Source: Tetraselmis striata | Lineage: Eukaryota; Chlorophyta; Chlorodendrophyceae; Chlorodendrales; Chlorodendraceae | NCBI GenBank assembly: GCA_006384855.1 | Contig: VCJN01001836.1 | Span: 1-64,000, forward strand | Direction: 5' to 3' | Length of the DNA: 64,000 bases | Notes under the pieces: generated by a model | Seen by the model: only the letters and a program-made list of their open reading frames with translations | What the model was told of the DNA's origin: nothing | The model's database searches: none | Made by a program: the position numbers and the translations under genes | Shown here: piece by piece, positions 5,954-45,512 of the stretch | Position numbering within the stretch: position 1 is the stretch's first letter | How the letters are laid out: each line of letters starts with the position of its first letter

Positions 5954-7430
5954 GGGGGCTCGGGCTCGGATTTCCGGAGGTGGGTGATAAATACTTGTGT
6001 GAGCGTGACGAAGCAATAGGGCGAGAGGCTCCATCCCATTTGCAGACCTGCGAGCATGTATTAGAGTTGACCTCGAACGTCCACGGTGGAGTAGTATCGG
6101 CCCGCCTTTGCGATGCCTATGGCATAGAAGCCGCTTTGTAGGTCAAAGCAAGGAGAACATGTAGTCTCCCTTTTTGGTGAGGTGGCGCACTCCCAGTAGG
6201 GTCTCCATCTTGAGTCGTTATTTTGCGCACACAGTAGGAGTGGAGCACGCGGAGGTCGATGATGCAGGGCCATTGGTTGACGCCGGGCTTGGGCACTAAA
6301 AAGAGTATTGACACCCACTTGCGGCAGGCGACAAGCTCCCACGCGCCGGACTCCACGAAGCGGGCAAGCTCGCCCTCGAAGAAGGTGAGATGCGCCGGGG
6401 TAGCGTTCTGCATACTAATGCCGTTGTGGAAGTTGGGTGGGGTGCGGTTTTGCTTGAAGGGGATCCGGACCCCCTCATGAATCCACCGTAAGACCTGATC
6501 GCTACCTCCGATGTCTTGCCATTGCCGCCATTACTCCCGCACGCGCGGTGTCGCATGTAGTTAGAACTTGGGCAGCATGATTCGGAACGGCGGGGCAACC
6601 CGTCAGTTATGCTCCTCGGCCTGCGGGGTAGTAGTCTTTTTCGCAGGGTTGCCGCGCTGAGGCTTGCCCTTGATCCTGTCCTTGTCCTTGTTCTTGTCTG
6701 CCCTCTCCTTGGTAGCTCGGTTTGCTACTCGCGCTCCTGCTCCTTTACGCGGTTGTTGCCGCCGCCATCGCCGCCTCCGCTCCCCCCGCCGCCGCCCTGG
6801 AACAGCACGGTTGCCTGCGCCTTGACCGCATTATTGTGGAGGCTGACGTCGAGTCGTTTGTCGTCCAGGGGGTTCAGGGGGCCGTCGACGCCATTGCTAG
6901 AGCGCTCGGCGGCGGTGGTGTCAAAGAAGCGGGAGTAGGCGATGAGGCGCTAGGCGACTCGCTCCTCGCCGGTAAGTGCCTTCTTGCCTGAGGTCGGTGA
7001 GCCGGTCTTCAGCACCCTGCCCGCACGTCGCGATCGTGCGAATCGCGTAGTCGAGTAGGTCGTTGGCGTCCGCGATGTCGCGAGCGGAGGCATTTTTCGC
7101 GCGAAGCGTTGCCACAACGTCAGTGAGCGCCGCGTGCGCGGAGGCGGGAAAGACTCCATAAACAGTAATGCAACCTATTTTGCCCCGAAGCACGCGGTGC
7201 ATTGTGGTTAGGTCTAAATTAGGGTTTGGGGGCAGCAGTGGGATTGCAAGCTAGTATGAATGCCGGTTGGTTCATTTTGTGCCAAGTCGGGGAAACCAAT
7301 TCCGTCCAAGCAGGGACAAATCAAAAGAGTGAAGGAAACGGGATGGTTACAAGTAGTTTGTGCCGTCCGGGGCTGAACCTCTGTCAAAGCCGGGACAAAA
7401 CATATGAGCGGCTAATTTTGCGGAATTGTA

Positions 7431-10400
7431 CTACGTATCATCATCTTCGATCACATAATCCCCTCGGCGCTCTGCCGCCTCTTGCCTCCTCTTCTCCGCC
7501 GCTACACGCTCTAACTGCTCCTCAAACTCGGTCATTGGATGGGGTAGACCCGGCCACTTCTCGAAGTCACTTGGACGCAGTTGTTGAGTCTCGTCCCATG
7601 GCTTCTCTTTGAACCATGAGGTCATCCTGGACTTCATCCCAGCGATTTGCGTCTTCTGGTTGTCAATGAGGATAATCTTCAAGTTCTTGTGTGTGAACGA
7701 GTAGGTATGATCCATATGGTCCCACCACACGGAAAAGGCCGCAGCGACCTGGAAAAGGCGTGGCAAACCGCACAAGGCGTTAATTTTTTATGTTGATCCC
7801 ATTAAGACACTCACCCGGGTTGCAGCCCTCACGCACCGCGGTTGTCCCGGTTCCGGCTGTGACGTCGACGATTGTATGTTGTCCCGTCTGTTGCCGCCAT
7901 CTTAAGGTGCTTTGCGAAGAGAGCGATTTCATAGGCTTTTGGTACTTGTTCACCGTCTGTCTGTTCTCGTCCTTCAATTTCGAACTGTCTTTGAAGTGAC
8001 CCAATATGATGGATGTAGAGAACCTGGAAAGGCACAACCGGGTTAGCGAGTAAATGAATACAAGCCGGCTATTTTCCACGGCTCACCTTCGGGGATCATC
8101 GAAACGGATGTTGTCAGCTATGATGCTTGGCGGGGGCTTCCTAACGTAGAGGTAGTACTCAGCGCCGTGAGGCAGAGAGCTGCCCATCTTCATCCCGCAA
8201 TCCTTGGCCCAAGTCAGGACGTGATAGATGAGGTCCTCAGCTTGTTTTTGAACGGCTGTGATTGCGGATCCAAGTTGCTGGTCCGAGAGGTGAATGAAGA
8301 AATGGCACCCATCGAGAGCAGTGTGGACGTCAGAAGATCCAGTCAGGATATTCAACTGCCTGCGCGGGGGAAAAATCCGGAATGAGATAAATGAAAGCAC
8401 AGTCATCTACGCACCTGGGTTGTGGGGGTTGTCTTGCCTGGCGAAAGCAAACACGTCGTTGAAGTCGTCCGTACCCCACGCAGCATCCTTCGAGTCCCAT
8501 GTGTGCGAACCAGCTCCGAAAAGCGCATCGGCAATGAAGAATGTTGCCTTTCTGACACGAACTGCCGACATGGCGTCCGCGACGAATTGTTTTGTCGCGG
8601 GAGCCTTGAAGTTCCCCTCCACAATGCAAGTCTTGCAAAGCTCCGTGTTCAACCACACCTTCTCATCCTTGTCGACCCCTTCTCCCTTGGGCATCACCGG
8701 AAGTTCCTCGGCATGTGCGTATTAGAACAGATTCGGGTTAATGGCTCACAACGAAAATTCAGAAGAGCATTTCTGGTTGCACAAGATCTTAGTTACCTTC
8801 ATCGATATCCACAGCTCATTAGAAACATTCGGAGCGGAAACCGCGATAAGCTCCGGCGCACATGCCAGAAGAGCAAACTCTGTGAAGAAGGAGATGACCA
8901 AGTCCGGCATCTGATTCTTGATGCGATACGCCTCACTCCTGATGGTAGTGTTGGTGGCCGCGATATGCTCTCGAACCGGTAGTGGTGTGAGACAATCGGC
9001 GGATTTCATGTCCCCCCATCTGGCAGGAGGGGTCAGCAAGACCATCAAAGGACCGGAGCGATGAGCACCTTTGAACAAATCCTGGAACTTTCTGGGGAAG
9101 CCTGTTGGGCCGAGGTCATCAACCTTGGCTCGGAACTTGGTGATGGCGTCAAGGCGAGCGGTCGCTTGCTCATCCGACACTTTGTTATCCACATCCATTT
9201 CGATGATGTGGTCCGAGAGATATTTCCCCCAGTTCCTGGCCGGTTCGTCGGGCGTCAGCAGTTGGAGTTCCTGTCCGTGTCCCTTTGCCGTGCCAATAGC
9301 ATTCATGAGCTTGATGCTTGCTCGACGCAAGAGATCGCGAAACCTCCAGGTCTCAATCATCGCGAGCCACTCCGCGTTGGTGTGCGTGACAGCCATGGGG
9401 CCATTGTCGCCGGCATGCTTAATGTCATCCACCAGCTCGTAGAGGCTCGGGGTCACACTGTGCTCGCCTTGGATGAGCAGTCCAACCACCAGGTACATCT
9501 GGCCCACAGGGAGATCCGCGCTGTCGCTCTGCTTGGCAAGAGACGGCTCGTCTAGCCAGGGCTAATGGGGTCCAAAGCCAACATCCTGGGTCGAAAAACA
9601 AACTTCAGTACGGAGAAAGACATGTTAGTATTCCATATGATTAAGACACTGGGGTCCGTCACAACTTACCTCCATGAGGGCGACTCGGAAGTGAGCTCTG
9701 TCTTTCCCGAAGCCGTACTTCTTGTTATCGAGGATTGTATTGATAGGCTTCCGAATTGCTTCGTAAACCTTCCTTACTTCCTTCTGGGTGAGTTGCCTGC
9801 CGTAATTGAGACGCTCGACTCTGTCGAGTTCTTGCTGGTAGTACACAAATACGTCTCGGAGTTTGGTTCTGGCTTTGTCCCATCCTCGAACACCGAGGGC
9901 CACATGCCGGTAGGCTTCAGAAATCTGCTCAAGGGGCTCAAAAACACTGCGCAAATCATTTGTCAGAATCTAGCAGCATTAACAACACGATACATTTTCA
10001 TCATGTACGCAGCTCACCGTTGTGGGCGCGAGCAGAGGTCAATCAAATTTGAGAACTCGCTGCTCTTCTCATCTTTGATGCCGATCTTCTCAAGTTCAAC
10101 TTGAAGAACTTCAGACTTCTTGAACTCCTTCACTACCCTGATCTACGGGAGTGCCCTAAAGCCGGGGCGATTTGCATCCAGTTCTGCATGCCAGCTCTCG
10201 AAACATCTGCTAAGGTTCTGCAGAAACAATTGCACCGATTTCAAAATTCCGAACGATTGTACCTCGATGACAAACCGTTTCGTCCCGCTGATGACAAAAC
10301 GTTTCGTCCCACTGATGACAGAACGTTTCGTCCCACTGATGACAGACCGTTTCGTCCCACTATTGACAGACCGTTTCGTCCCACTGATGACAGACCGTTT

Positions 10401-13400
10401 CGTCCCACTGATGACAAACCGTTTCGTCCCACTGATGACAAACCGTTTCGTGCCACTGAGGACAGACCGTTTCGTCCCACTGATGACAAACCGTTTCGTC
10501 CCACTGATGACAAACCGTTTCGTCCCGCTGATGACAGACCGTTTCGTCCCACTGATGACAAACCGTTTCGTCCCACTGATGACAAACCGTTTCGTCCCAC
10601 TGATGACAGAACGTTTCGTCCCGCTGATGACAAACCGTTTCGTCCCGCTGATGACAAACCGTTTCGTCCCGCTGATGACAAACCGTTTCGTCCCACTGTG
10701 ACATATTTTTAACCCGCTAACGAAGAACGACTTTTGTCACACTTTACGCCTATTTGCTGCCACGGTCAGCTTAGTAATAATTTGGGAGAATGGGGCACTC
10801 ACCAGGAGTTTGTGCATCGACGTGTCTCCCACGACGGTGTGACCCGACTCGTTGAGCTTCATAGACATGTAGCGGCAGACTTCCGGCGAGAGGCCGATGT
10901 ACATCTTAGCCGACGTGAGGTGGATGCCTTTGTTGGCTTTGTAGATTTCCGGGTAGTTTTCTTTCACCATGCGCTTCGCCTCCCGTCTGTGGCTGCCGTC
11001 GATGTTGGCTTGACGCGCGCCGTAGGCGTTAAGAAAATCGATGATGACATCGATGTCTGGCTTGTAGGAACTTGAATCCGCCAACCTCGGGTTCTCCCCG
11101 CCTTCGTGTGCTGCGACTAGCTCCTTGAAGTTGGCCATGGTCTGAGCGAGGGGCTCGTACTCATCGGAGAAAAAATCTTGTTTAGGGACTACTGGAAAGG
11201 ACACCGAGAAATTCTCGGCGGACAGGGAAGGATTCCTCTGAATAACAAATGCAAGAAATGGATGTCAGTAAGTTGCATTGTGTATTGATTTATATGTAAC
11301 TACACATATCTGATCCGGATAGGTACAACAGGTCGCGATAGGCTTTTACCTTGTAGCTTTGCGCCACCATATTGCAGTCTTGCAGCTTTGGGGAACGGAA
11401 TTCAAATTCCGGCGGCGGAGCGACGAACTTATCGGATATAAAGCTGAAAATGTGAGGCAGCCCCGTATCCTTGTCGACGACGAGGTTGACTCTGTCGGCG
11501 TATAACATGTTGATGTCGCCACCGTGAGTTGTCTTCACCTCTGGATCAGCAATCTCGACTCTGAGGTGGCCGTAAGAGATCCAGTCGACGGCACCGGTGT
11601 TGTGGAAGCCATTCAAGGCCGGCGGGACGGCCAACGTGTTGACGTATGGAAGCGCGTTCTTAAAATCCTTGTCAATGTTGGCCAAGTCACCGATGTCAAT
11701 CTGACCAGACGCGAAACCTGTCAGCGCCTGAGCCAGCACATTGCGCTCGACCAAAGTCCATGCGTAGTAAGACTGGAACCGCGGCTGGAAGGAGAGTGGC
11801 GGTTGGATCGCGTGGAGTAGCAACCTCTCAAAGCTGACATCGATCCTGAACTCCTTGTGTACTGTCAAGCGATAAGGTTCAAGGGAGATCTGCGGTAACA
11901 AGCATAAGAATATTAATACTTATTGAAACACGACATTGACACGAATTCAGACATCATATAAGCTTTACTCACCTCGTAGTTTCCGGCCGAGTCCAACTCG
12001 ACGTCCTTGATCTTTCCGATACACGCGAGAAGTGGCCGCTCCGGATCATCGAAAAAGTCCTTGCCAGTCAGCAGGCTCGCCTTGTGCAATTCGATGTACA
12101 AATAGATTTGTACCTCAGCACTTGCGTTCTTGAACCAGTGGATAGTCCAGCTCCTTGAGGTAAAGTCGCTGTAGGAGTCATCTTCTTGGGACCCGTCCCT
12201 CTCGTCAAAGAAGTCGTCGTAAGAGGCGACCGTCATCAGCTTTGTCTTCCTCTCGGGTCCAGGAGTGCCGGTGATGTCGAGAGCTTGCTTACGCTTCTCT
12301 GCCGCCCGTTGCCTCTGTTCTTCCTCTGTGCCGAAGACCTCTTAATCCGTGCACATACTGAGGAATTCAGGAACCCTTCTCGGAGCCTCGGCAATAGGGG
12401 CTCGAGAACCAGAGGCCCCAGAACCAGACGCTTGCCCGGTAGTCGGCATTGGAGTCTCGAGCTCGGCCTCTGGCTCCGGGTCAAGCCGAGTGGGCTCGGG
12501 CTCCGGCTCCGGCTCAGTGTGCTCTATTTCAGGCTCAGGCTCTGTTTCCGGTACTTGAGATGGGCCTTTAGACAAAGAAGAGCCTTGATTCGGGGAACCT
12601 GTAAAGAATGAGTAGAGAGTACTCAACATACCTGCAGTGGGCGTCACGATTAACTACTGAACGGTATCGCCATACACCATCAAAGCCAAGCGTAATTTTT
12701 CTTACCTGGGGATCCCGATTTACCAGCTGCTTCAGACGCGGTTGCCTGCGCCAATTTACGACCTGTTGGAACGTCAGATAACTCATTGACGAGAAAGTTA
12801 TCGAAGGGAGTGAGAAGGCAGGGATTGATACTTTCAGTCACAATTACCTGGAGTCACAATCGTCTCTGAAACCTTTCCTTTTCCCTTGGATTCCTTTGAA
12901 GCTTGAGTCGCTACTGGCTCATGTGCGCGTCCTTTCGAACAATCGTTTTTTCGAACAAACGAGTCACAATCGTCTCTGAAACCTTTTCTTTTCCCTTGGA
13001 TTCCTTTGAAGCTTGAGTCGCTACTGGCTCATGTGCGCGTCCTTTCGAACCTGTCAACACACATGATTTCAAACAATGTAAATATGACACAGTGCACTCA
13101 CAAAGGCAGGGATTGATACTTTCAGTCACAATTACCGGGAATCACAATCGTCTCTGAAACCTTTTCTTTCCCCTTGGATTCCTTTGAAGCTTTAGTCGGT
13201 ACTGGCTCATGTGCGCGTCCTTTCGAACCTGTCAACACACATGATTTCAAACAATGTCAATGTGACACAGTGCACTCACAAAAATCACATGATTGGAGAG
13301 GCAAGGACCTGATTGATAGTAAGCTTGCATGAGTTTTTCGTAATCGATTAGCCTTCGCGCTGTCTGCATTTGAGCATCTGAGAGGACTTGGCCGCTCTTG

Positions 13401-14879
13401 ATTCGGGCCGTCAAAAGAGCGGCGACCGATCTTTCTCCTTGCAAGTGCGTGCCTTAAATCGTCACTCTACCTCCTAAAAGGCTCGGTTTCCAGGGGTTAC
13501 CTGATGCCTCAGCGCCCGCTCTAGCTGCAGAAGCTGAGGCTGCACGGCTCTTCTTCGCCGCCGGCTGCTCGGGCACAGAAGATGACGCCTTGTGTTTTCT
13601 CCCGACTAGCGCTCCGAGCGCATCGAATTCTTTTGCTTTCTCGGTAGGTTTTGATGTCCGCTTGGACCTTCGACCTATAAATATCATGTGCTGTCAGACC
13701 GTTTCGTCCCACTGATGACAGACCGTTTCGTCCCACTGATGACATACCGTTTCGTCCCACTGATGACAAACCGTTTCGTCCCACTGATGGCAAAACTTTT
13801 CGTCCCGCTGATGACAGACCGTTTCGTCCCACTCGTGACAGAACGTTTCGTCCCACTGATGACAAACCGTTTCGTCCCACTGATGACATACCGTTTCGTC
13901 CCACTGATGACAGAACGTTTCGCCCCACTGATGACAGAACGTTTCGTCCCGCTGATGACAAACCGTTTCGTCCCGCTGATGACAAACCGTTTCGTCCCAC
14001 TGATGACAGACCGTTTCGTCCCGCTGATGACAGAACGTTTCGTCCCGCTGATGACAAACCGTTTCGTCCCACTGATGACAAACCGTTTCGTCCCACTGAT
14101 GACAAACCGTTTCGTCCTGCTGATGACAGACCGTTTCGTCCCACTGATGACATACCGTTTCGTCCCACTGATGACAAACCGTTTCGTCCCGCTGATGACA
14201 AACCGTTTCGTCCCACTGATGACAAACCGTTTCGTCCCACTGATGACATACCGTTTCGTCCCACTGATGACAAACCGTTTCGTCCCACTGATGACAAACC
14301 GTTTCGTCCCGCTGATGACAAAACTATTTTCAATACATTATGTACTGCGGTTTAAGAATGTAATGTCTTCAAGTACTGCGCTTCACACTAATATTAAACC
14401 ACTCCTTACGGCGGAGTACAGGCAGAGGTTCCCCCTGGCCGCTCTTCACCCCCACCCCCTCCCACCACCAATTAGCATCCTTACTGCTTGCCGCAGCTGC
14501 CTCGACGGGACGTAATACTACCCTGCAGGACCCTGATGCCGCTCGTCTCGTTTGGGTTTCTATTCTCACTCGTCTGCCTACACCTCGAGCGGTCCTAGAT
14601 TACACCGCTTCTACAGGGAACCCTAACCGAACTCGCTAGATCTGGCCGCATCACGCGTCGAGCAGGCAGGCGGCTACTGTACGCTGCCACTCGTCTGCCA
14701 ACACCTCGAGTGGTCCTAGATTACACCGCTTCTACAGGGAACCCTAACCGAACTCGCTAGATCTGGCCGTATCACGCGTCGAGCAGGCAGGCAGCTACTG
14801 TACGCGCGCGCAACTCACCTGGGGTGGCGTCGTCCTTGTCTTCCTTGTCCTTGGCAGGCTCGTTCTTCTTCGGCGCCAT
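7431..14879 (-). CDS. Transposon-borne protein with N6/N4 DNA methyltransferase-like C-terminus
   Basis: My model has about 15 exons: 14879-14819, 13674-13501, 13437-13309, repeated small exons within 13228-12850, 12762-12706, 12598-11973, 11889-11350, 11237-10803, 10217-10018, 9946-9670, 9585-8797, 8706-8415, about 8355-8087, 8023-7815 and 7748-7431 (roughly 1,500 aa). The N-terminus is basic with an NLS-like PAAKKSR and a Glu/Pro repeat tract. The middle is unrecognised. The last four exons follow the order of PF01555-type (beta-class) methyltransferases: a motif IV-like IADALFG (about 8515-8545) followed by WGTDDFNDVFAFARQ; HFFIHLSDQQLG (about 8253-8300); LTWAKD and AEYYLYVRKPP (about 8210-8131); and the SAM-binding DVTAGTGTTA (about 7870-7837). 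The catalytic D/SPPY position reads DALF, so activity is doubtful. Defects: in-frame TAA at 12344-12342, TAG at 10145-10143 and 9564-9562, a one-base frame slip just before the DVTAGTGTTA motif, and a phase mismatch at the 8415/8355 junction. Confidence 0.6.
10262..10698 (+). repeat. 24-bp minisatellite array 1
   Basis: About 18 tandem copies of a 24-bp unit built around CCGTTTCGTCCC followed by RCTGATGACA, with one- or two-base variants. The array lies wholly inside the intron between exons 11237-10803 and 10217-10018 of the minus-strand methyltransferase-like gene. Because 24 is a multiple of three, long repetitive frames appear in every register. These are not genes. Confidence 0.9.
12840..13240 (-). 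repeat. Exon-containing tandem triplication
   Basis: Three copies of a segment of roughly 110-180 bp stand head to tail. Each contains a small exon encoding a Lys/Glu-rich linker (SKGRAHEP, SKESKGKEKVSET). The best-preserved copy is an exon of 93 bp (13228-13136) bounded by AG and GT. It is symmetric (phase 1 in, phase 1 out), so copying it does not disturb the reading frame. The two other copies are partly fused, with loss of the intervening splice sites. Confidence 0.7.
13686..14318 (+). repeat. 24-bp minisatellite array 2
   Basis: About 26 copies of the same 24-bp unit as at 10262-10698, in the same plus-strand orientation. The array fills the proximal part of intron 1 (14818-13675) of the methyltransferase-like gene and ends about 12 nt from its acceptor site. 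Confidence 0.9.
14562..14806. repeat. About 121-bp tandem duplication in intron 1
   Basis: Two nearly identical copies, each containing ACACCTCGAG, GGTCCTAGATTACACCGCTT and ATCACGCGTCGAGCAGGCAG, stand in tandem within intron 1 of the minus-strand transposon gene, next to the donor side. Confidence 0.85.
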
Positions 14880-15421
14880 TCTGGCGGTAGGTAGGTTGAC
14901 GCGGTAGATGAGCGGGTTTCTTGGTGGGAAGGGGTGAGGGAGAGGTGGAAATGACGTGGTTTCTGTCTGCCGCCGCTCTGACCCCTGCTGGACCAACGGC
15001 GCGCGTGCGCACACTATAGTGTACCTCGTCGTCGTCATCAGATTCAGGTATTTTGCACCGCGACGAATATACAGGGCTAACTACTGCGACTATATATTAC
15101 TATTACTGGAAGATAAAATATTCCCTACTCGAGAGTCATAGCGGTACGAGAGTACAGTGGCGTGGCAATAATATTCCTTCATGAGATGATATATTCCTTG
15201 GATTGGATTCGGGTGTACTTACTAGTATAGAACTATTTCCGACATACGAAAGAAACACGAAATAACACGGTATTTGAGTCATCAATTATTTTGACCCGTA
15301 GCTGGATATTATGCACCCCGGTCAACGGCCCGTCCGAGAACGGTCATCGGCCGTCACTCTTCCTCACCACATATCACAGTCCTTCACCCCCCCCCCCCCC
15401 CACCCACTCGCCCCGCGCTGC
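14880..15421. promoter_or_regulatory. Putative bidirectional promoter of the transposon
   Basis: This 0.54-kb non-coding stretch separates the two divergent transposon genes and must contain both promoters. It is more AT-rich than the flanking exons between about 15040 and 15300 and includes a C-run at 15389-15402. No specific promoter element is assigned. Confidence 0.45.
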
Positions 15422-18400
15422 ATGGCGGCGGTCGAAAGCATGGCCTCTTCTCCAGGATCCGGCGCGTCGGACACTACAGTTACATTACCGCTGTGTTCGT
15501 GCCGCAGCGGGTACTCGTGTGATTGCGACGCGCGTGCGAGTGATCGTAAGGAGCCTGAGAAAAGGAAGTACACGTGGGGCAAGGGCTGCGATGAGGTCGC
15601 CGAAAGCGATAATGGCAAGGTCTCGTCTCTGATCAGCAAGCGCACCTCTCGCGATTGTATCCGCCTCATGCTCGCCAAGGAGGCTAGCGAGCAGTCGCCA
15701 TGCTGTTCGCGCAAGTGCGTGCACAAGCTATACACACAGTGCGGAGAGGCCCTCGTTGATGCCGTGTTGGACCGTGCGTTGACCGTATACTCTGGCAATC
15801 AGAACCGCTCCTTTGACCGGCTCGCTCAGGTTCTCAGGGGTGGCTACGAGTCGGCATCCGACAAGTTCGATTACATGTTCGATCACGGTGGCTACTTGCG
15901 ATCTTTCGATCATCGCGGCCCCATCTACACGTGTGGGCGTGCGTGGGAGGTCTTGCATCAGGTCTCGAAACACAGACGTCTCGTGATCCAGCGGTCGGTG
16001 GTGGATAACGAACCCACGTACATCAGGCAGCGCAAGCAATACGAGAGCAGACAAACCGGACCGAGGGAGCATGTGCGCATGTTTCTCGAGCACTTCTTCT
16101 CGGATGACCTCGGTCACGTCGAGATCATGCCTTTTCATGACGGAAACAGCGAGACCTTCAAGAAGCACCTACCTCCCTGGATGACCAAGATTTGCGTCTA
16201 CTACTGCTACAAGTCGTGGGCCGAGGACGACAACGCCATTCTCCGTGGTGAGGCCCATTTTGTCCCACTGATGACATACCGTTTCGTCCCGCTGACGACA
16301 AACCGTTTCGTCCCGCTGATGACAAACCGTTTCGTCCCACTGAGGACAAACCGTTTTGTCCCGCTGATGACAGACCGTTTTGTCCCACTGATGACAGACC
16401 GTTTCGTCCCGCTAATTACACACCGTTTTTGTCCCGCTGATGACAAACCGTTTCGTCCCACTGATGACAGACCGTTTCGTCCCGCTGATGACAAACCGTT
16501 TCGTCCCACTGATGACAGACCGTTTCGTCCCACTGATGACAAACCGTTTCGTCCCACTGATGACAGACCGTTTCGTCCCACTGATGACAAACTGTTTCGT
16601 CCCGCTGATGACAAATCGTTTTGTCCCACTGATGACAAACCGTTTCGTCCCACTGATGACATGCCGTTTTGTCCCACTGATGACAAACCGTTTTGTCCCG
16701 CTGATGACAAACCGTTTCGTCCCGCTATCGCCAGAACGTTTAGTCCCACCGACGCCGGACCGATTTCGTCCCACTGATGACAGAACGTTTCGCACCGCTC
16801 ATGGCATACCGTTTCGTCCCACCGACCACAAAAGTATTTGTCCCACATAATTAGCCGATATCGTCCCACTGCAGAGAGAACGTCTTAACCCACTGTTGAG
16901 AGACGGTTTTGTCCCACTACTGACATACCGTTTCGTCACACTGATGACGGATTGTTTCGCCATGCTGATTACAGAATTATTCACCCACTACCGATATAAT
17001 TATTTCGACCACTTTAGACCGAACTTTTCTGTCTCGCATTATGAGACCTTATTTGTATACCGACCTATCATGCCCCTGCCCCTTTGTAGATTTGGCTACC
17101 GAGAGCGAAGTGAAGCTCGCATCGTTCGACACTTTCCGCCGGACTTGGAAGGAAGACTTCCCGGATGTCACCACGCCGAAGGTGAAGCGATTCAGCCACT
17201 GTCCCATATGCGCGGCGGGCAAAGCACTCAGAGACCAAGCTCGCGAGATTTGCACAAAGGACATGACGCCAGAGGAACGTCAAGTGCACCGTCAACATCA
17301 GCAGCTGGTGAGGCGTCAGGTCAGAGCTGAGCAGAAGGTACACCTCGAGAGAGTGCGCCAGGAACGAAGGGATCTAAACAACGCCGTCTTCCAGTCGCGC
17401 CTTGGCCATGGAAACTTCTTCTTCTTCGAAATTGATAGCATGGACTCCGCGAAGACCCTGCTGCCTCACTAGGTTCGCATCCCCAAGACTGTGAAGCCCG
17501 ACATGCTCCTCAAGTACCACCTCACCTGTGTGAAGTACGACGGATACCGCCCGGACGACATCTACTACTACACCAACACCATCCCCCACGATTCGTCCAC
17601 GACGTGCACTCTGATATGGATCACGATCATGAAGGTGAGCTCGTTAGCCTCCCGATAGGTTCGCCGTGGTTGTCCGGTAGCCATGGACTGATGAAATCTT
17701 GTCTGCGATGCAGGAAATTCAACACCGTAGTAGAAAGATTCCGTACATCAGAATCCAGATGGACAACACCGTCACGGAGAACAAGAATAGGAACGTGGCG
17801 GCCCTCTGCAATTGGCTTGTGTCTATCGGCATCTGCGACGTCATTCATTTGGTCTTCTTGCCTGTCGGGCACACTCACGAACGGGTTGACCAGATCTTCA
17901 GCCGCATCAGTCTTGCGCTATCTCGCAGCTCCGCCTACACAATCGAGGCCTTTCTTGACTTGGTGGCGAAGGCATTCTCGCCCACTCCGGAGATTGCTGA
18001 GCTCTCATTCTCCCTCGACTTCTCTGAGTGGTTAAGGCCCCATTTCCAAGACCACATTCAGGACATCAGTAAGCCGCACAAATTCGAGTTCACCCGTGAC
18101 GACGCCGCCGCGTCTGGCGGCTCGTTGCGCACCGCGTTGTGGTCCAACACACCGCTTTCTGAGCCCGTGCAGATCTTGAAGAGCGCGCCAACTAGGACGC
18201 CCGGGATTCGTGCGGGCCGGCCCCTTTTGTACGCTCTCTTCGACAAAAAGAAGCCCGACGCGGTGAAGGTCCAGAGGTACTTGGATGATTTCAAGAAGGT
18301 CAGGTCGTACATCACGGACCTGGCGGTCCAGTGGCACTTCTCCCCAGTCGAGCGCGAGAGCTGGAAGAATCTCCTCGACGACTTGGATGAGATGCAAACT

Positions 18401-19360
18401 GCTCCTTCGGCAGCTTTCTCCGGGTTCTGGCCGCAACGGAAAGAGGAAGTTGACGACTTCTTGCGCGAGCACGGGCAGACCGCGCCTGCTGAGGCACGTC
18501 ACGCGATGGCTACCAACGCAGACCTCAACAATGCCGAAGCCGCTCGGGTTGAAGCCGAGGTTCGTGCTCAAGTGCTTGAAGATGACAGCGCCTTCCGGGG
18601 AGTTCACGCCGGCGCCAAGGAGAGGCTTCATAACAACACATCGCCCAGCGATGCAAAGGGCTCGAACCTCGTTGTCATCGACGTCTCCGATGTGAGTCCC
18701 ATTGTTTGTCATTTTTGTCCTTTACGGGACAAAACAATTTGGTTCATCTACCTTGCTTGTTATTTTGTCCCAACCGGGACAAAATGGCGTGGCGTCTCGC
18801 TCAGGACTAACATAGTTCGCGGTCTTGGTCATCGTTAGGTGCATGAGGAAGACAAGTGCCGTGAAACTCTTGGTGATTGGGAGTCGAGATTCGTCATCGG
18901 GCTTGTGAAGTCGCGCGAGACTACCGAAGACACGTTGACCGTGGCCGTATACGAGCCCTTCCATGCCGATGCAAAGGGCAAACCCCTCATGCCCCTATGG
19001 TTGTACGCGTTGACAAAAGGAGGGAAGAAGCCAGTTGACACAAGCTGGGAGAAGTGCCTGACGCTTCCTTGGAAGCTTGTTGAAGCCGTCCCCCTATCGT
19101 ACGCGAAGGCCATCCACGACGCGTCGGGAAGTCGAGAGGTGTTCAACGAGGACGGCACCATGGTCAGAAAGAAGTGGTACGGTAAAAGCGTCCAAGTCGT
19201 GAAGACATATGCGCAAACTGGGTGGCAAATCAGCCAGCCACGAAACAACTGCGTCCACGTCATGTCAACCACCCCAGCGCAACGCAAACCCGGCGGAGTC
19301 GTCAAGTTTAACGTAGCCACGAAGAAGGACTTGCTTGAGTTGGGGATGCTCAACGAATAA
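15422..19360 (+). CDS. VGHTH-type (DUF7869-like) putative DDE transposase
   Basis: Four exons with matching phases: 15422-16247, 17090-17634, 17714-18691, 18839-19360 (about 956 codons). Exon 1 has Cys-rich pairs (CSCRSGYSCDCD, CCSRKC) and ends with the region before the catalytic core. Exon 2 has CPICAAG and EIDSMDSAKTLLPH. Exon 3 opens with the family signature QMDNTVTENKNR and FLPVGHTHERVDQIFSRIS. The two Asp positions and the GHTH block look like an RNase H-fold active site, which would make this the element's transposase. Proteins with this signature are common in eukaryotic genomes and mostly uncharacterised, so the transposase role is inference. Intron 1 is filled with the 24-bp array. 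One in-frame TAG (17470-17472) interrupts exon 2 where flanking family-like sequence continues. The gene ends with TAA. I chose the start at 15422 because it follows the pyrimidine-rich leader; an in-frame ATG lies upstream. Confidence 0.7.
16254..16990 (+). repeat. 24-bp minisatellite array 3
   Basis: About 20 regular copies of the same 24-bp unit (16254-16730), followed by about ten progressively degenerate ones. The whole array lies inside intron 1 (16248-17089) of the VGHTH gene. Orientation on the plus strand equals that of arrays 1 and 2, although the host gene here is on the other strand. Confidence 0.9.
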
Positions 19361-20250
19361 ACTATCAGCAACGTCTTGTGGCTAGCTAGCCGCTGGATGT
19401 AATAATCATAATAAATATTGATTTCATTGCCTCATCTTTTCCCATTTTGGACAAAATGCTCCAAAACCAACATTGGATATGCGTCGCGGCTGGCCTTCAT
19501 GCATGCTGTTGAATGCTGCACTGCACCCAAGGTCTACAAACCCAAGCTACATCACCAGTGAGTCTTAAGTACTGATAGTAAACCCGGGAACTAGGGTATA
19601 AACAAACCCTACGGTGCAAAATGAATTCCACGGCGCAAAATAGGTTAAACTAATGTTCATAGCACAATAGGTGGCGAAACTCGTCGCGCGTCACGTGCAA
19701 CTTCTCGTCGGTGAGGTAGCAGTCCGACTCGTCGTGGCGCGGGTTCCACAGTCCGGGGGTGGCGAGTCCTACATGGGGCATAGACTCGCCGTATGCCCAC
19801 GGCAGGTTGTCGATTTAGTCGCGCGGGTCGATGAACGCCGCGTAGTGGCCTAGAGATTTTGCAGGGAAACCGGGGGGAGGGTCGTCCTCCCCGTTGTCAC
19901 TCTCGAGGCCTGGCGGGGATAGATTTTTGCGGCGGCGGTTGTTAAATGGAAAAGTTTGTGCGAGAGTCTAGCTTGTCGAGTTGCAGCGGCATCCGCCGCA
20001 CCAGCGCAGTCTGTAGTGAAGCTAGCGGTGTCAGTTATTGTTGAACTGCTAGCGGCGTTGCCTCCACCGCCCCCCTCCAAATCGTATAGGTCGTCAGGCA
20101 GCCGTGTGTTGCCCTCAGTGCGGCATGCTGTCGTTATCGCAGTCGCGGCGAGCGGCTGGCGTCGAACGTCATTGTGAGATCGTGTTCCACCTTGCTTGCG
20201 AGACTGCAAAAGTCTCGATGCCGTTGTGCTAACTGGAAGCTGGCGCAAAG

Positions 20251-38593: not shown

Positions 38594-39078
38594 GGCTATG
38601 GGCCCTCTCACTTGGTAGACTTCCTCGACAGCATCGAGTGAATTCCACCGACTTCCTTTGCCTTTCTTTTTGCACTACCTCGGCCGCTCCAGCTGCTTGC
38701 CAACAAGCGCGCCGACCTGGAAAAACAGCTCGAAACTGATCGACTTTCCTTTCCCCTTTCATATATCTTGGACACCTGCTTCAACACCCTCGTGTCGACA
38801 ACGTCTTCAGACGTCGTCTCTACTTCCTGCCACTTCGTGTCTGCCTCGGCCTCAACGCCTTTGGCTTTCTCCTTGCTCATCCTCTACAAGCTTGTGGTCG
38901 ACATCATCTCAGCTTGCTGAAAAACATATAATCCTGCAACATCACCACCAAACTCTTCCGGTCATCACATTTACTGCCACTGGCAGGACGACTTTCAACC
39001 TTTCAACCCTTTCAGCCATCAACCCTCTTTAGCCGGACGCCTTTCAACTTAATATATATTTTGTTTCCCCCCATAAAC

Positions 39079-42000
39079 ATGACATCGGCAACCTCCGGCG
39101 CATCCCCCGCTGTCCTTCTTGAGGAGAGCACCATGCAACGTGTCGAGCCACAGCGCGCCCCCAAACTTGCGGACCGGGCAAGCATTGAAGATTTTATCAC
39201 ATGGCGCAAGTCCTTTACATCATGGGCTGCCAGAAACGGCCTCGCTGAGGCCCTGGCCGGGGGCAGTGGCTACCTGCGTCAAAATCTTCTCTTCGAGTGC
39301 GTGGAGGCAGCCGTTCAACAAAATCCTCTTGCAACTGCGGAGGTCAATTATTGCACCCCTCTTGACAACGATGTCCTCGCTATCGACAACCATCATGGCG
39401 CGGTTGCATGGGGAGCGGTGCTAAACATGTTTCAGCAGCACAAGCATAGGCACGTAAAAACGGTACTGGACGGCCTGCGACGCGGTCAACTCGCGCATGA
39501 AGACTTAGGCGCCTACCTTTATCGCATGGAGACTGCGCGCCGTACCTTGCGCACAACCCTGGAGGCGGAGCTTACGGACGACGACTTCATGGATCTATAT
39601 TTTGTTCCCGGTATCCACGAGCGCTATGAGAAACTGCGGGACGACTTGGAGGAGCTACGGGCAGACGGCATCCACTGCGACTACGCAGCGCTTCGCGGCA
39701 AGGTCATGATCAAGGCTCTTCGTGAGGCCGCCAGGCGTCCGTCGTTGTCACCGCACGTTGACCTTATTCCTCGCGCTCCTGCTCCCGTCACCCCACCACC
39801 AGTGGCAATGTCGGCGTCGCTCCCTACCCAGTCCTGCCCCGACCGTGAATGCAGTCGCTGTGGTCGTTCCCGTCACACAGCACCGTATTGCTGGCAAACA
39901 CGGCACGTCAACGGCTCCAGGCTCCTTGATTCCCCGCCGGCGGAGAAACCTGCGTGGCTTGCCAGCGGCGGCCTTCGCACTCCAGCGGGAGCACGCCCGA
40001 ACCCTGTCAAGTCCCAGCCGCCTGTGTTCCCTGGCGGGCGGCCAACTGGCGCTAGCGCCAGCGTCCCTCCCATCGTGGAGTTGCCTGGGGACGGTTTCGT
40101 ATGCATGGCTCACGCCCCCGCTTTTCCGCTCTCCCTTCCCGTCTGCGACGGATTCAATGTGCCCTCCCCCACCGTCGTCGAGACTGCACCTACTGAGCTC
40201 CCGCAAGGACAGCGCAGTTACTCCGTCTCGGCTGGCTGTGACGGATTCGATGAGCTGCTCGACGTAATGAATGGAACGTGTGCTGGCGGAGAGGGCGCTG
40301 AGTGCGCCACCTACACTGACCGCGGCGATTGTGGTTACCTCAATGACACCACGGCCGCGCGGAGTGGCGGCGTTGGTCTGGCTGTGCGCGGCGGTCAGCA
40401 CGACACATGTGCCCTACGTGGATCGGCCTCACCCCTCATCGATTACACAAATTGTGGGCGTAGCTACTCTCTCTACGCTAATGCCCCATCTGCCGCTGGT
40501 CGACTCCGCCCACGTGCCCATTCCTCACTTTGCACACATGCCCTTGACGGCGTATCACTACCGTTGGAGCGACCAGCCACTGAGCATCACTCACCAGTCA
40601 CGGGCCCTGCGACTCCGACTGGCTGCACCGCAACCATGGACATGTGCGCGCCATCCGCATTGGTTTTCACAACTGTTGCTGCACCCCCCGCGTCCGCCCT
40701 GGAGCTTCCGTCCCTTCAGACCGTGGGCCTGGTGCCTCTTCCTCATGCTCTCATCATCAACCATTTCTTCGGGCTGTGCTGCGGTGGGACGCTCTCTCTG
40801 CTCGACGGCATGCTGACGGCAGGCTTTGCGGTCACTAGGGTGACACTTTGCGAAATTAGTCCCGTGCGGAGACGTTGGGCTGCGGACCGCCTTCGGATGC
40901 TGTCTGCCGAGTACCCGACCCAGCTCCACGAGGACGCCTTTCAGGAGGCGTTCTCCTCTACGCCGCAAGACGTGACCTTAATCACTGAGGATGTGCTTGC
41001 GGCCATGCCTCCAGTCACCCTGGTTGCTGCGGGGCCCTGCTGTGAGCCCTGGTCTAGTGCTGGCTCCGGTCGCGGGTGGGAGGATATGCGCAGCGGCGTC
41101 ATGGCAGCCGTCGTTCGCATTGTACGGCATCTGGCGGATGTGCAGCCTGCCTCAGTTTCTTACTTAATAGAAAATGTGCCGGGAGCGCTGAAGTGTCCAG
41201 AGCTTATCCTCTCTCTTGGCGAGCCCCTCATCGTGAACGCGTTGGACTGCGGTTCGTCGGCTGCCCGGCGTACACTCCTGTGGACCAACGCCGCTCCTTA
41301 TAGCTCTCTCATGGACCACTACGCCACTCAACGTCACTCGGCTCCGCCGCTGGCGTCGGTGCTGTCATCGCACGGCCTGTCGCCCGAATGGACATGCATT
41401 CGCCCCGACCAACATCACCTCCCTAAACTAGTCGCAACGGCAGGGAGTTATGCCTTTCGTCCTCAGTCGGACGGATCTCCTGGTGCTGGCATGCTGATGC
41501 ATTTTGGAAAGATTGAGGAACCGGATGCTCTAGTGCGCGCTCTCATCATGGGTTTCCCTAGGAACGCGGTGCTCTGCACATCTATCCCCAACAACGAGTT
41601 GTGTGCAGCCCTCGGAGGCTGCGTCGACCGCAACCTCGCGGTCTGGTTCTTCCGGGCCGTGGCGGCCTATCTTTGCACATCCACGCCCTGTACGGCTCTA
41701 CCTGCGTGTGCTGTTCTTCCCAACACCGCACTCTCCCAGTCCTCAACTATTCCTCCTGGACAGCGGCGCATCGCGGCACGTCGCTGGGCGGCGTCGTCAC
41801 TTCTATACTTACACGACACTGGCGTCCTCGGACCAGTTTCGCCTTGGCGGCCTACGCGCAACAGTTTACGGTGTGGGTACCTTACACGTTACTTACACAT
41901 CTACCGCCGGTCAACCAGTCGTCTCCGTTTTGCGGAATGTACTCCACGCTCCCGGCCTTCTCACCGCCGCTCTTCCGCACGCAGTGGAGTTTCTTTTCAG

Positions 42001-42165
42001 CCAGAGCGCAGCGCAGTCCTCCGGCGCGACTTTCTACTTCGGCCCCAGCACTTCTACCATGACGCTCCCTTGCGGCGCGGACGTCAATGTGGAACGTATG
42101 CACGATGTTGGACTCTACGCGCTGCACGCTGTCGTGACCCCTTCTGCCGATGTGCCCCAAGCTAG
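39079..42165 (+). CDS. Copia gag plus C5-cytosine methyltransferase open reading frame
   Basis: This single open frame starts at the first ATG after the leader and is about 1,030 codons long. Residues 1-240 are gag-like (helical, with HKHRHVKTVLDGLRRGQL and FVPGIHERYEKLRDDLEELR). A retroviral-type knuckle CSRCGRSRHTAPYC follows. After a 280-residue Pro/Ser/Cys linker, a C5-methyltransferase shows motif I FFGLCCGGTLSLLDGMLTAG (about 40764-40825), motif IV GPCCEPWSSAGSGRGWED with the catalytic Pro-Cys (about 41031), motif VI IENVPG (about 41168), a motif VIII-like ARRTLLWT (about 41266) and a motif X-like RALIMGFPR (about 41537). The last part of the frame overlaps the protease start in another frame. 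A role in methylating the element's own or host DNA is inferred, not shown. Confidence 0.85.
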   Translation: MTSATSGASPAVLLEESTMQRVEPQRAPKLADRASIEDFITWRKSFTSWAARNGLAEALAGGSGYLRQNLLFECVEAAVQQNPLATAEVNYCTPLDNDVLAIDNHHGAVAWGAVLNMFQQHKHRHVKTVLDGLRRGQLAHEDLGAYLYRMETARRTLRTTLEAELTDDDFMDLYFVPGIHERYEKLRDDLEELRADGIHCDYAALRGKVMIKALREAARRPSLSPHVDLIPRAPAPVTPPPVAMSASLPTQSCPDRECSRCGRSRHTAPYCWQTRHVNGSRLLDSPPAEKPAWLASGGLRTPAGARPNPVKSQPPVFPGGRPTGASASVPPIVELPGDGFVCMAHAPAFPLSLPVCDGFNVPSPTVVETAPTELPQGQRSYSVSAGCDGFDELLDVMNGTCAGGEGAECATYTDRGDCGYLNDTTAARSGGVGLAVRGGQHDTCALRGSASPLIDYTNCGRSYSLYANAPSAAGRLRPRAHSSLCTHALDGVSLPLERPATEHHSPVTGPATPTGCTATMDMCAPSALVFTTVAAPPASALELPSLQTVGLVPLPHALIINHFFGLCCGGTLSLLDGMLTAGFAVTRVTLCEISPVRRRWAADRLRMLSAEYPTQLHEDAFQEAFSSTPQDVTLITEDVLAAMPPVTLVAAGPCCEPWSSAGSGRGWEDMRSGVMAAVVRIVRHLADVQPASVSYLIENVPGALKCPELILSLGEPLIVNALDCGSSAARRTLLWTNAAPYSSLMDHYATQRHSAPPLASVLSSHGLSPEWTCIRPDQHHLPKLVATAGSYAFRPQSDGSPGAGMLMHFGKIEEPDALVRALIMGFPRNAVLCTSIPNNELCAALGGCVDRNLAVWFFRAVAAYLCTSTPCTALPACAVLPNTALSQSSTIPPGQRRIAARRWAASSLLYLHDTGVLGPVSPWRPTRNSLRCGYLTRYLHIYRRSTSRLRFAECTPRSRPSHRRSSARSGVSFQPERSAVLRRDFLLRPQHFYHDAPLRRGRQCGTYARCWTLRAARCRDPFCRCAPS

Positions 42166-42904
42166 TGCTCGCACACTCTCCTCTCCCGTGCCGGTGGCGG
42201 CGGCCGCTGTCGGCCGTTCGGGCGGTTTTGCTGGCTCTCGTGCCCAGGCTGCACTCCTCCATGCGCGGATGGGTCACACCCATCATGACGGCATCTTGCG
42301 AACCGCCAAACTGGTGCCCAGTCTCCCATATGTTATCGGTGCCCCACCATTCTGCGAGGTGTGCGCACTCGTCAAGTCCACCGTCGCTGCAGTTCCCCGC
42401 ACCGTCGGCTCACGCTTCGAGCATGAACCATTCGCCGTACTCAATCTCGACATATGGGGACCCATGGCTCCGTCGCTTCACGGTCGCCGCTGGATGATTG
42501 GCGCCAACTGCCGGCGCACGAATGTTCACCTGGCGGGCAGTCTTGTTACGCAGTCCGAGGCCGCAGGTGCTGTGGATCGCTTCTTGGCTTTCGCACGCCG
42601 CAAGGGCTTCAATGTCCGTCAGATCCGCGTTGACTGCGCTGCTGTGTTCCTGTGCTCTTCTCTTGAGAAGATCTGCAAAGACGCTAAGGTGGATATGCAG
42701 ACGTGCGACAGCTATAGCCCTCATCAGAACGCGCGTGCGGAGCGCCCTTGGCGAACCCTGGCCTGCATTGCGAAATGCCAACTGCTCTATGCCGGCCTAC
42801 CCCTTAGTTTTTGGGAGCTCTCTTGGTACCATGCAGTCTACATCATTAATCGCAAGTGGAGCGCAGGACCCGGAGATGTTCCGTTGCTCGCTGCTGGTCA
42901 AGAG

Positions 42905-43866
42905 TAAGGCTCCGCATCAAGAATCAATAAAAGATCGAATCATGGTGCACCAGACAGATCGTGAATCGCACCAAGAATCAATATTTAGGCGCGGAATTTA
43001 CTGGTGCACCGATATTTATTGGGCTGTAATATTCGGTGCACCGATATTTAGGCGCGGAATTTACTGGTGCACCGATATTAAGGTACCGGTATTTACTGGT
43101 GCACCGATACTTCGGTGCCGACATTAACTGATGCACCAACATTTAACCGCATATTTTACCGATGCACCAATATTTATCTGCGTAATTGAATCAACGACTG
43201 GTGCACCAAGAATCAACCGAGAATCAGCCACAGTGGGAGACATGTGTCATCGACGGCTTCGGTCGTGACGATGCTTAGAGAGGGTTGTACTCATTGATGA
43301 TTCCCGCGGACGAAGGGGGAGGGCAGGGGCCGCAATCTTTTTCCCAAGTTGTATGGGATTGGTCCCATACATGCTTCTTAGTACTTAGCGCATCACACAT
43401 GCTGCAGTAATGTGGTGTGCGTCCTGTCCACTTGATGCATGGATCAAAGTGTAATAATAATATGATGATGAAAGCCCTTATGTGATAAAAACTCCTCGTA
43501 CTTGCACGAGTAATCATAATATGATGATGTTAATTGAGGCTCATTTTCATCGCATGAACTTGACACAATTTCCTTTCTTCCAGATTAACTTCAAATTCGC
43601 GGAGTAAAATCGATTAATACTGCATATATCACCTCTGGTGCACCAATATTTACACACGGAATTTACTGGTGCACCGATATTTAGACACGGAATTTACTGG
43701 TGCACCGATATTTATGTGGTGGATTTACCGGTGCACCAATGTTTAGCAACCCAATTAAATCGATTAAAGATCGGATCAACTGGATCATGCACCAATTCTT
43801 GATCTTTTTTTTCCGTCATGCACCAATTCTTGATATTTATCTCCTGAGGCTTGATGCGGAGCCCTA
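42905..43866. mobile_element. hAT-like MITE (962 bp) inside the Copia integrase
   Basis: The 17-bp terminal inverted repeats are TAAGGCTCCGCATCAAG and, from the other end, TAGGGCTCCGCATCAAG. They are flanked by a perfect 8-bp target duplication GTCAAGAG (42897-42904 and 43867-43874). An 8-bp duplication with TA(G/A)GG ends points to the hAT superfamily. The element is AT-rich, non-coding, and studded with copies of GGTGCACCGATATTTA and relatives in its outer thirds, arranged like subterminal transposase-binding repeats. It is necessarily younger than the already young Copia copy. Confidence 0.9.
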
Positions 43867-45512
43867 GTCAAGAGGTAGACCTCTCCGGCATGCGGGTCTT
43901 CGGCTGCCCGGCCTACGTGCACCTCGACCGTACGCTTCGCCGAAAGGCGGACGTGGTGGCATGGAAGGGCATATACTTCGGTCAGTCGCCTAATTCTCCT
44001 GGCTGGCAGGTGTATAACCCAACCACCGGCGCGATCTCGGTAACACGCAGTGCGGTGTTCTGCGAGAGCTGGAGGCAGGGCCACACCTTTCCATTCGGTT
44101 CCCAGTCCTTTTCTAGCGAGCCCTTGTTGGAGTCACCAAGTGAGGCGGCGACGCTATACCCTCAGTCGCCAGCGCTCTCTGTTGATGACGACGATGACCA
44201 TGCGCAACCCCCCACATACATTTCCACCGGCATCATACACCCATCAGTGGACTCTCCACTATCGCCTGCCTCTCCGCCTCCCCGCTCCGTGGACAACGAC
44301 GACCATACCCCCGCACCGCAGCCGGTTCTTCCCCAGCTGCCCTCCTCACTGGCCTCACCTTCGTCAACCCTCCTCTCTGCGGAGACCCCCACGTCGCCCC
44401 TGCAACGTGGTTCTTCCCCGCCTCCCACTACCCCGTCCAACGTCAGCCCCCACGCTGTGGCTGATTCTTCCTCTAGCGACGGCGCCGACAACGCTGCCGT
44501 GGACGTCCGCCAGCTGCCACCACTGCCATCTTCCCCGCCACTGCGTCGCAGCACTCGTATCCGCTTCAGCACCACCGATGATTCCTACGTCTACTATGGG
44601 ACCACCAAGTCCTCATGCCCGGCTGCCCCGGCTGCAGTCGTAGACTCAGTTTCGCTTCCCTCCACCATCTCTCAGCACGACATCCCGTGCGACGCCGGTG
44701 TGCCAACCGCCCTCTTGGCGTGCGCGATACCTCGACCTGACACCGCGGGCCGGGAATTTCACCCCCGTTCTCCAGCCCCTACCTCCGGCTTTTGCCTTGC
44801 AGCCTCAGCACCTCGCCATTCCCCTGGTGGAGATCTACCTCCTGACCCGCTCACTTATGACGAAGCCATGCGCTCCCCCTACGCTGCGGAGTGGCAGGCT
44901 GCCGTTGCGGCAGAAAATACTGCCCTTCTCGCTAAACAGACGTGGAAAGTGTGTCCACTCCCCGCTGGGCATAAGGCGCTCGGCACCCGGTATGCCTTTC
45001 GGACTAAATTCTTAAAGAATGGGTATGTTGACAAGCGCAAGGCTCGTTTCGTAGTTTTGGGCAACCACCATGCGAAGCAGAATATGTCTCCGCGTCTGAA
45101 GCTGGACGCGTCATTATGTTCTCTCGCCAGTTTTTGTGCGAGGTTCTCGGACCGACTGCCTTGAAGGACCATCCCGTCACTCTCCAGTCCGACAATGAAG
45201 GCTCACTTTGCAACCTGCGTCAACTTTCTGTGGGCCGGAAGTTGCGACATGTCGACATCCGATATCACTACGTTCGTGAATTGGTCGCGTCTGGAGCCAT
45301 TCACGTGGAGTATGTCCAGTCTGCAGACAATCTTGCCGATATGTTCACCAAGGCTATTCCAAACCCAAGATTCTCCCAGTTGCGGGCCCGCTTCATGCGT
45401 GACCACCGTGCCCGTCCCCAACTCCCCTAGACGCTATTTCGTTTTCACCCCGTGTGTTCTCCACCATCAAGCCCCTTCCACTGGTGTTTGGTTTGTGGGG
45501 GGGGGGGGGGGG

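Follow-up and report, generated by a model that had tools for sequence, protein, structure and literature searches.

The stretch of DNA analysed here (the window) is the first 64,000 nucleotides of contig VCJN01001836.1 of the green alga Tetraselmis striata (assembly GCA_006384855.1). At 7161-19657 it carries a 12,497-bp copy of a DNA transposon bounded by terminal inverted repeats (TIRs), which is quite probably the relic of an autonomous cut-and-paste element combining a DDE transposase of the DUF7869 type with a partner protein derived from a beta-class DNA methyltransferase. Cleavage by the transposase would take place at the 23-bp TIRs, and each insertion would duplicate 4 bp of target; its partner would bind S-adenosylmethionine (SAM) and DNA, and would be a lasting associate acting on element DNA, either by methylation or by SAM or DNA binding without standard methylation. 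The non-standard role is considered because motif IV of the partner has lost both prolines. A broader proposition, tentatively held and a little short of an even chance, is that such elements represent an undescribed, old DUF7869 DDE superfamily with an obligate amino-methyltransferase-derived partner (D[AS]NY or DALF at motif IV) kept across deeply diverged lineages, transposition being coupled mechanistically to DNA marking or SAM-dependent control.

The borders were set by comparing ends on other contigs of the genome (224 Mb searched, in 2,903 contigs). The TIRs, about 23 bp long, read AACAGTAATGCAACCTATTTTGC, with TT in place of GC at the opposite end, and the exact pattern has 416 genomic matches (222 + 194) against 0 for a backward control. 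Among 11 copies with both ends read, seven have equal 4-bp flanks (CATA, GTAC, CGTT, CCGA, GCAT, ATGT and CCAC, the flank of the CCAC copy being repetitive sequence) and four have unequal ones (C1399, C2669, C2110 and C501, the last with only about 4.3 kb between its two ends). These target-site duplications (TSDs) follow no TA rule, which sets them apart from the TA target sites of Mariner; Academ and other superfamilies have TSDs of 3-4 bp. When the window flanks are rejoined around a single CATA, the resulting 240-base query crosses the junction in all 40 scored places (of 295 candidates) at 89-91% identity, with all 240 bases matched in 35. Insertion was therefore precise, and the target was a member of a different high-copy repeat. 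The flanks of that host repeat are window 7041-7160 and 19662-19781, and once the element is removed an open frame of 130 codons, for which no Pfam match was found, spans the insertion site.

Neighbouring ends that face inward form 20 pairs among the 100 ends listed, each consisting of one left-type and one right-type end. Twelve of these pairs are 12.0-12.8 kb long, two 11.1-11.6 kb, two 7.3-7.4 kb and four longer, and no short non-autonomous derivative is among the 20, the shortest measuring 7.3 kb. All 40 scored right-end matches (of 428 candidates) are at least 99% identical. To judge from these comparisons the family is recent and abundant, and has been mobile in the past with precise ends. 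A second copy of the same element is on the window's own contig (G000:C1481:136161-146812).

The plus-strand gene was joined from four exons in copy C1721, where it gives an open frame of 956 residues; near-identical proteins are found under Tetstr1 labels. The DUF7869 profile matches one window exon with E 4.6e-37 and the C1721 protein with E 1.1e-43 (149.5 bits). In a structural model of the protein core, which is RNase H-like, D385, D468 and E507 follow one another in the DDE sequence, and DDE integrases or transposases make up all 50 of the structural matches listed. On this model the gene likely encodes a DDE transposase, and DDE catalysis by its product is supported. A sequence search with the transposase alignment returned no credible PDB match, and Pfam hmmscan up to E 10, where HMMER filters most weak matches, returned no KDZ family. 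With inverted repeats at both ends, a TSD, an empty site and a modelled DDE core, the element has the features of a TIR transposon, for which excision and integration activity would be predicted.

For the minus-strand gene the model from C1721 comprises ten exons in an open frame, with nine introns that are all GT...AG; it is sequence-based, and the start of its first modelled exon is placed to within a few bases. The modelled part amounts to 1,348 residues, with the methyltransferase profile match in the last 356 and no Pfam match over cut-off in the N-terminal part. Transferred by eye to the window, the exon models cover 7431-12598; a probable first exon of the gene is at 14819-14879. A stretch around HFFIHLSDQQLG, skipped by several Tetstr1 gene models, was kept as coding because the distant relatives P0156 and P0157, both metagenome proteins, have it.

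Spliced, the C1721 minus protein matches PF01555 (N6_N4_Mtase) with 30.7 bits and E 3.9e-07, the curated cut-off being 26.7. A Pfam scan of ten single window stretches of the gene gave no methyltransferase family, so detection depends on splicing the gene as read from a different copy. Among relatives, P0156 (42.4) and one from C401 (38.1) score over the cut-off, P0153 (25.5) and P0157 (20.8) below it. A profile built from the domain and its distant relatives matches the PDB entries of MboIIA (9.1e-9), CcrM (5.2e-8), DpnA (5.9e-7) and RsrI (3.2e-4), matches that were weaker with another profile; in an NCBIfam scan CcrM matches were partial only and far below cut-off, and IMG/VR scans revealed no relatives of either protein. 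Alignments to CcrM and MboIIA give the order motif IV, motif VIII region, motif X/QKP, motif I, which is that of the beta class. On this homology the C-terminal domain is a descendant of beta-class amino-methyltransferases of MboIIA/CcrM type. MboIIA, CcrM and DpnA share the domain and its motif order; they differ in that the aligned solved chains have DPPY, whereas in the transposon family this motif is D[AS]NY or DALF and the protein is extended by a large additional N-terminal region.

An earlier note, made from the letters of the window, had placed two divergent, intron-containing genes between inverted repeats at 7171..19646, one of them DUF7869-like and the other ending in the beta-class motif order of PF01555, and had staked the latter assignment on a profile match. 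The divergent genes and both family assignments are borne out, the methyltransferase by the profile search itself; the unit bounded by inverted repeats also stands, with its ends moved to 7161 and 19657.

Motif I is kept as D(V/I)TxGTGTT in nearly all rows, with DVA in three Tetstr1 models. For motif IV, 56 of 98 family proteins hold the surrounding pattern: 53 have DALF, one DALL, and two, which are models of one gene, skip the motif. DSNY or DANY is found in P0156 and P0157, and DSNY in both loci read (C401 and C1479) of a second Tetraselmis methyltransferase-like family. Wherever motif IV was read, both prolines of DPPY are absent while the acid and the aromatic residue are mostly retained, and the beta-class form (D/N/S)PP(Y/F/W) is seen in none of these proteins. 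On this point the results depart most from the earlier note.

The window copy is itself a broken relic, with three internal stops in the modelled minus gene, one in the plus gene and, upstream of motif I, two small insertions (5 and 4 bp) absent from the nine other copies aligned with it. An origin of the stops by C-to-T decay was considered and dropped, the changes relative to other copies being mixed. In five of 15 copies (C1721, C1496, C2669, C1399 and C2576) the aligned exons of both genes have no internal stop and change length only in threes, splice sites having been checked in C1721 only.

The ratio of nonsynonymous to synonymous differences (pN/pS), pooled over all pairs of 14 copies, is 0.47-0.54 across most of the minus gene and 0.74 in the motif IV exon, and for the transposase it is 0.36 (13 copies), all of these being rough figures since copy pairs are not independent. 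The C-terminal tail of the minus gene (window ~7431-7598) is highly variable among copies, with a pooled pN/pS of 1.41 over the last 56 codons (14 copies). Compared singly with C1721, the whole methyltransferase domain gives 0.52-1.85, at or above 0.9 in 10 of 14 comparisons. Purifying selection on both genes is supported by such ratios, and for the methyltransferase domain taken separately is weakly shown.

What the partner does can be read in two ways, between which, from the motifs, the odds of a methylating versus a non-methylating protein seem about even. One is that the partner works as a DNA methyltransferase, active on N6 of adenine or N4 of cytosine, and marks element DNA, whether to evade silencing, to time transposition or to protect an intermediate, which is a credible proposal but falls short of an even chance. 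The retained motif I (D[VI]T[AC]GTGTT), together with the Asp and the aromatic residue of motif IV, favours it, as does the fact that the closest solved relatives are adenine methyltransferases, and DNA modification by the minus protein is plausible; however, both motif IV prolines are gone in the family and in the four relatives where the motif was read. Changing SPPY to APPA killed the PF01555 enzyme of bdelloid rotifers (PMC8885841), though there the Ser and Tyr were altered and not the prolines.

The other, to which we give the same limited credence, is a catalytically dead methyltransferase fold retained as a DNA- or nucleoprotein-binding transposition factor. The METTL3-METTL14 pair, which has an inactive subunit, is comparable in principle. 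Replacement of DPPY by D[AS]NY or DALF in family and relatives alike, in a protein whose pooled pN/pS is about 0.5 over most of its length, speaks for such a factor, and the large additional N-terminal part devoid of Pfam matches over cut-off is also pertinent; the near-perfect motif I, however, suggests that SAM binding still matters.

Other loci bear on whether the two genes belong together. In the main family, that of the window copy, 150 DUF7869 loci were listed, and for 63 of them a partner exon or left element end is also listed at the expected place, which is on the other strand, on the correct side and 5-15 kb away (mostly near 10 kb); the arrangement is wrong in 1 of the 150. The 63 are a lower bound, the two lists having been drawn from 548 and 1,068 candidates; the other 87 loci may or may not have a partner. 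In the Tetstr1 annotation 14 of 54 DUF7869-side proteins are numbered adjacent to one of 79 partner-side proteins, where the random mean is 0.17.

A genome search with P0157 gave 80 matches, with a best E of 3.4e-38 (106 scored of 345 candidates). The two best-scoring loci read, C401 and C1479, are those of the second methyltransferase-like family, which is 31% identical to the C1721 domain, and at least three of the weak matches (C313, C340 and C1376) are main-family exons. When 59 clusters of other DUF7869 groups (from 73 scored of 1,038 candidates) were set against 75 partner clusters, 10 divergent pairs emerged, 10-25 kb apart and seven of them at 10-12.6 kb, with none misplaced within 30 kb; among the matches listed, 49 DUF7869 clusters and 65 partner clusters are left without a counterpart. 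In eight pairs the DUF7869 group is 41-54% identical to P0129 and in two (C2177 and C2460) it is the P0129 group itself, P0129 being 33% identical to the main transposase. In the widest pair, that of 25 kb on C1400, a main-family copy in between would account for the extra length; at G000:C1400:56182-81913 a main-family copy apparently sits within an element that belongs to a different DUF7869 group.

Sequence comparison thus shows recurrent pairing together with homology of both proteins, and its occurrence in distantly related elements suggests an old partnership of DNA transposition with a protein of DNA-modification type. It bears directly on the proposal that the methyltransferase-like gene is chance cargo of one family with no role in transposition. 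The differing histories of the two element halves, and a whole-domain pN/pS near 1 in many single comparisons, would suit cargo; pooled ratios near 0.5 outside the tail and the motif IV exon speak against it, and the strongest argument for a lasting partner is the second PF01555 family, a diverged homologue paired divergently and in the same orientation with other DUF7869 groups. Cargo is therefore judged improbable. For the window copy, the empty sites across its exact ends refute a coincidental adjacency of two neighbouring repeats. This reading, for which no evidence was found, has next to no standing generally, given a single unit between TIRs and units of about 12.5 kb on many contigs.

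As to the histories of the halves, 500-base blocks of the transposase half (8.5-12.5 kb) are mostly 98-100% identical to C1721, with lower values in C326 and C436 and in a block that borders a minisatellite, and blocks at 1.5-6.5 kb are mostly 94-99% identical. Across copies L013-L042 the transposase half is nearly identical in most, the methyltransferase half more diverse, pointing to a mosaic history or exchange. Exchange between copies, we infer, may account for both the uneven identity and the unequal flanks.

Accessory DNA-modifying genes in transposons are already known as a kind. TET/JBP dioxygenase genes are present in fungal DNA transposons of 11 lineages, including KDZ and Plavaka (Kojima 2025, PMC12730594). 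These are likewise TIR elements with a DNA-modifying accessory gene, whose proposed role is escape from silencing, but their accessory gene is a dioxygenase acting on 5-methylcytosine and the TSDs of Zisupton are 8 bp (PMC12730594); the T. striata plus protein, moreover, has no KDZ profile match. Giant-virus genomes harbour Mariner elements with genes for an endonuclease and a methyltransferase (Bao and Jurka 2013, PMC3627910). These too are DDE-type transposons bearing a methyltransferase gene, but with a Mariner transposase, TA sites, an extra endonuclease and methyltransferases of the Methyltransf_26 and C5 types (PMC3627910). Retrotransposons, too, are mobile elements that have acquired DNA methyltransferases, with Dam-like enzymes in DIRS elements and dinoflagellates and charophytes among the hosts (de Mendoza et al. 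2018, PMC5890265); they differ in having reverse transcriptase and C5 enzymes, or Dam-like ones in DIRS (PMC5890265). The bdelloid N4CMT is an active PF01555 enzyme with an SPPY motif and a chromodomain (Rodriguez et al. 2022, PMC8885841). It is likewise a permuted PF01555 enzyme in a eukaryote, with transposons as its targets, but it is a host gene and, in the parts of that article drawn on here, is not described as transposon-borne (PMC8885841).

In the portions consulted of the open-licence PMC literature, a scope outside which Repbase Reports fall, no mention of DUF7869 was found, nor any description of a DUF7869 or PF01555 transposon or of the pairing of both. What appears new is a transposase group found undescribed and joined to an unusual enzyme relative. 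The earlier note had gone further, proposing a new autonomous transposon type without precedent in which DNA modification accompanies transposition, and had looked to genome-wide linkage of the two genes as its check. The linkage is there, in at least 63 of the 150 loci and in the 10 pairs of other groups, and the pairing has no description that was found; modification in step with transposition does not follow from a motif IV of DALF, or of DSNY or DANY in relatives, nor are such accessory genes new as a class (PMC12730594, PMC3627910, PMC5890265). The window copy, moreover, is broken, whereas five of the 15 copies examined are uninterrupted in their aligned exons.

Table 1. Features of the transposon copy in the window.
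Feature	Position	Strand	Basis
Whole transposon copy, broken	7161..19657		Borders, stops, TSD, empty sites
Left TSD copy, 4 bp, CATA	7157..7160		Identical to 19658-19661
Right TSD copy, CATA	19658..19661		Identical to 7157-7160
Left TIR	7161..7183	+	Repeat listing, end comparison, 416 exact genome matches
Right TIR; last bases altered in window copy	19635..19657	-	End comparison
Terminal exon of minus gene, downstream of motif I; includes the variable C-terminal tail, with its stop codon at 7431	7431..7748	-	C1721 model
Minus gene exon: QKP motif, motif I (DVTAGTGTTA); two small insertions in window copy	7837..8023	-	C1721 model, copy alignment
Minus gene exon, motif VIII region (AEYYLYVRKPP)	8087..8359	-	C1721 model; P0156, P0157
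Minus gene exon with motif IV altered to DALF; window copy differs at the upper splice site	8411..8713	-	C1721 model
Minus gene exon; in-frame stop in window copy	8797..9585	-	C1721 model
Minus gene exon	9670..9946	-	C1721 model
Minus gene exon; in-frame stop in window copy	10018..10217	-	C1721 model
24-bp minisatellite array, intron of minus gene	10242..10712		Repeat listing
Minus gene exon	10803..11237	-	C1721 model
Minus gene exon	11350..11889	-	C1721 model
Minus gene exon, Pro/Glu-rich stretch; in-frame stop in window copy	11973..12598	-	C1721 model
24-bp minisatellite array in the 5' portion of the minus gene	13680..14330		Repeat listing
Probable first exon of minus gene (MAPKKNEP)	14819..14879	-	Start common to Tetstr1 models P0001, P0007
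Plus gene exon 1, start codon putative	15422..16247	+	Splice model from C1721
24-bp minisatellite array, intron 1 of plus gene	16250..16950		Repeat listing
Plus gene exon 2, carrying the first Asp (EIDSMDS) and a CxxC motif; window copy has TAG at 17470-17472	17090..17634	+	C1721 splice model, fold
Plus gene exon 3: second Asp (QMDN), Glu (VGHTHE) of proposed DDE triad	17714..18691	+	DUF7869 E 4.6e-37, fold
Plus gene exon 4 including stop codon	18839..19360	+	C1721 splice model

The introns of both genes hold about 50 units of the 24-bp minisatellite, which are similar to the TTTGTCC/GGACAAA words lying close to either end of the element (at 7314, 7393, 18714, 18727, 18764, 18777 and 19449), and at a guess the 24-bp repeats are candidate binding sites for one of the two element proteins. 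Elsewhere in the window, a copia-like retrotransposon occupies 38932-45164 (+). The first of its long open frames includes a domain of the C5 DNA methylase family (PF00145, E 4.1e-7), with the motifs GPCCEPW and ENVPG, and pol domains of copia type come after it; the window apparently contains methyltransferase-bearing elements of two kinds.

With these elements DUF7869, a domain of unknown function, can be regarded as probably that of a DDE transposase whose ends and TSD are defined. Its pairing would provide a eukaryotic test case for transposon-encoded DNA-marking or SAM-dependent proteins that regulate transposition or resist silencing, and the presence in an alga of young, apparently uninterrupted copies makes the question testable.

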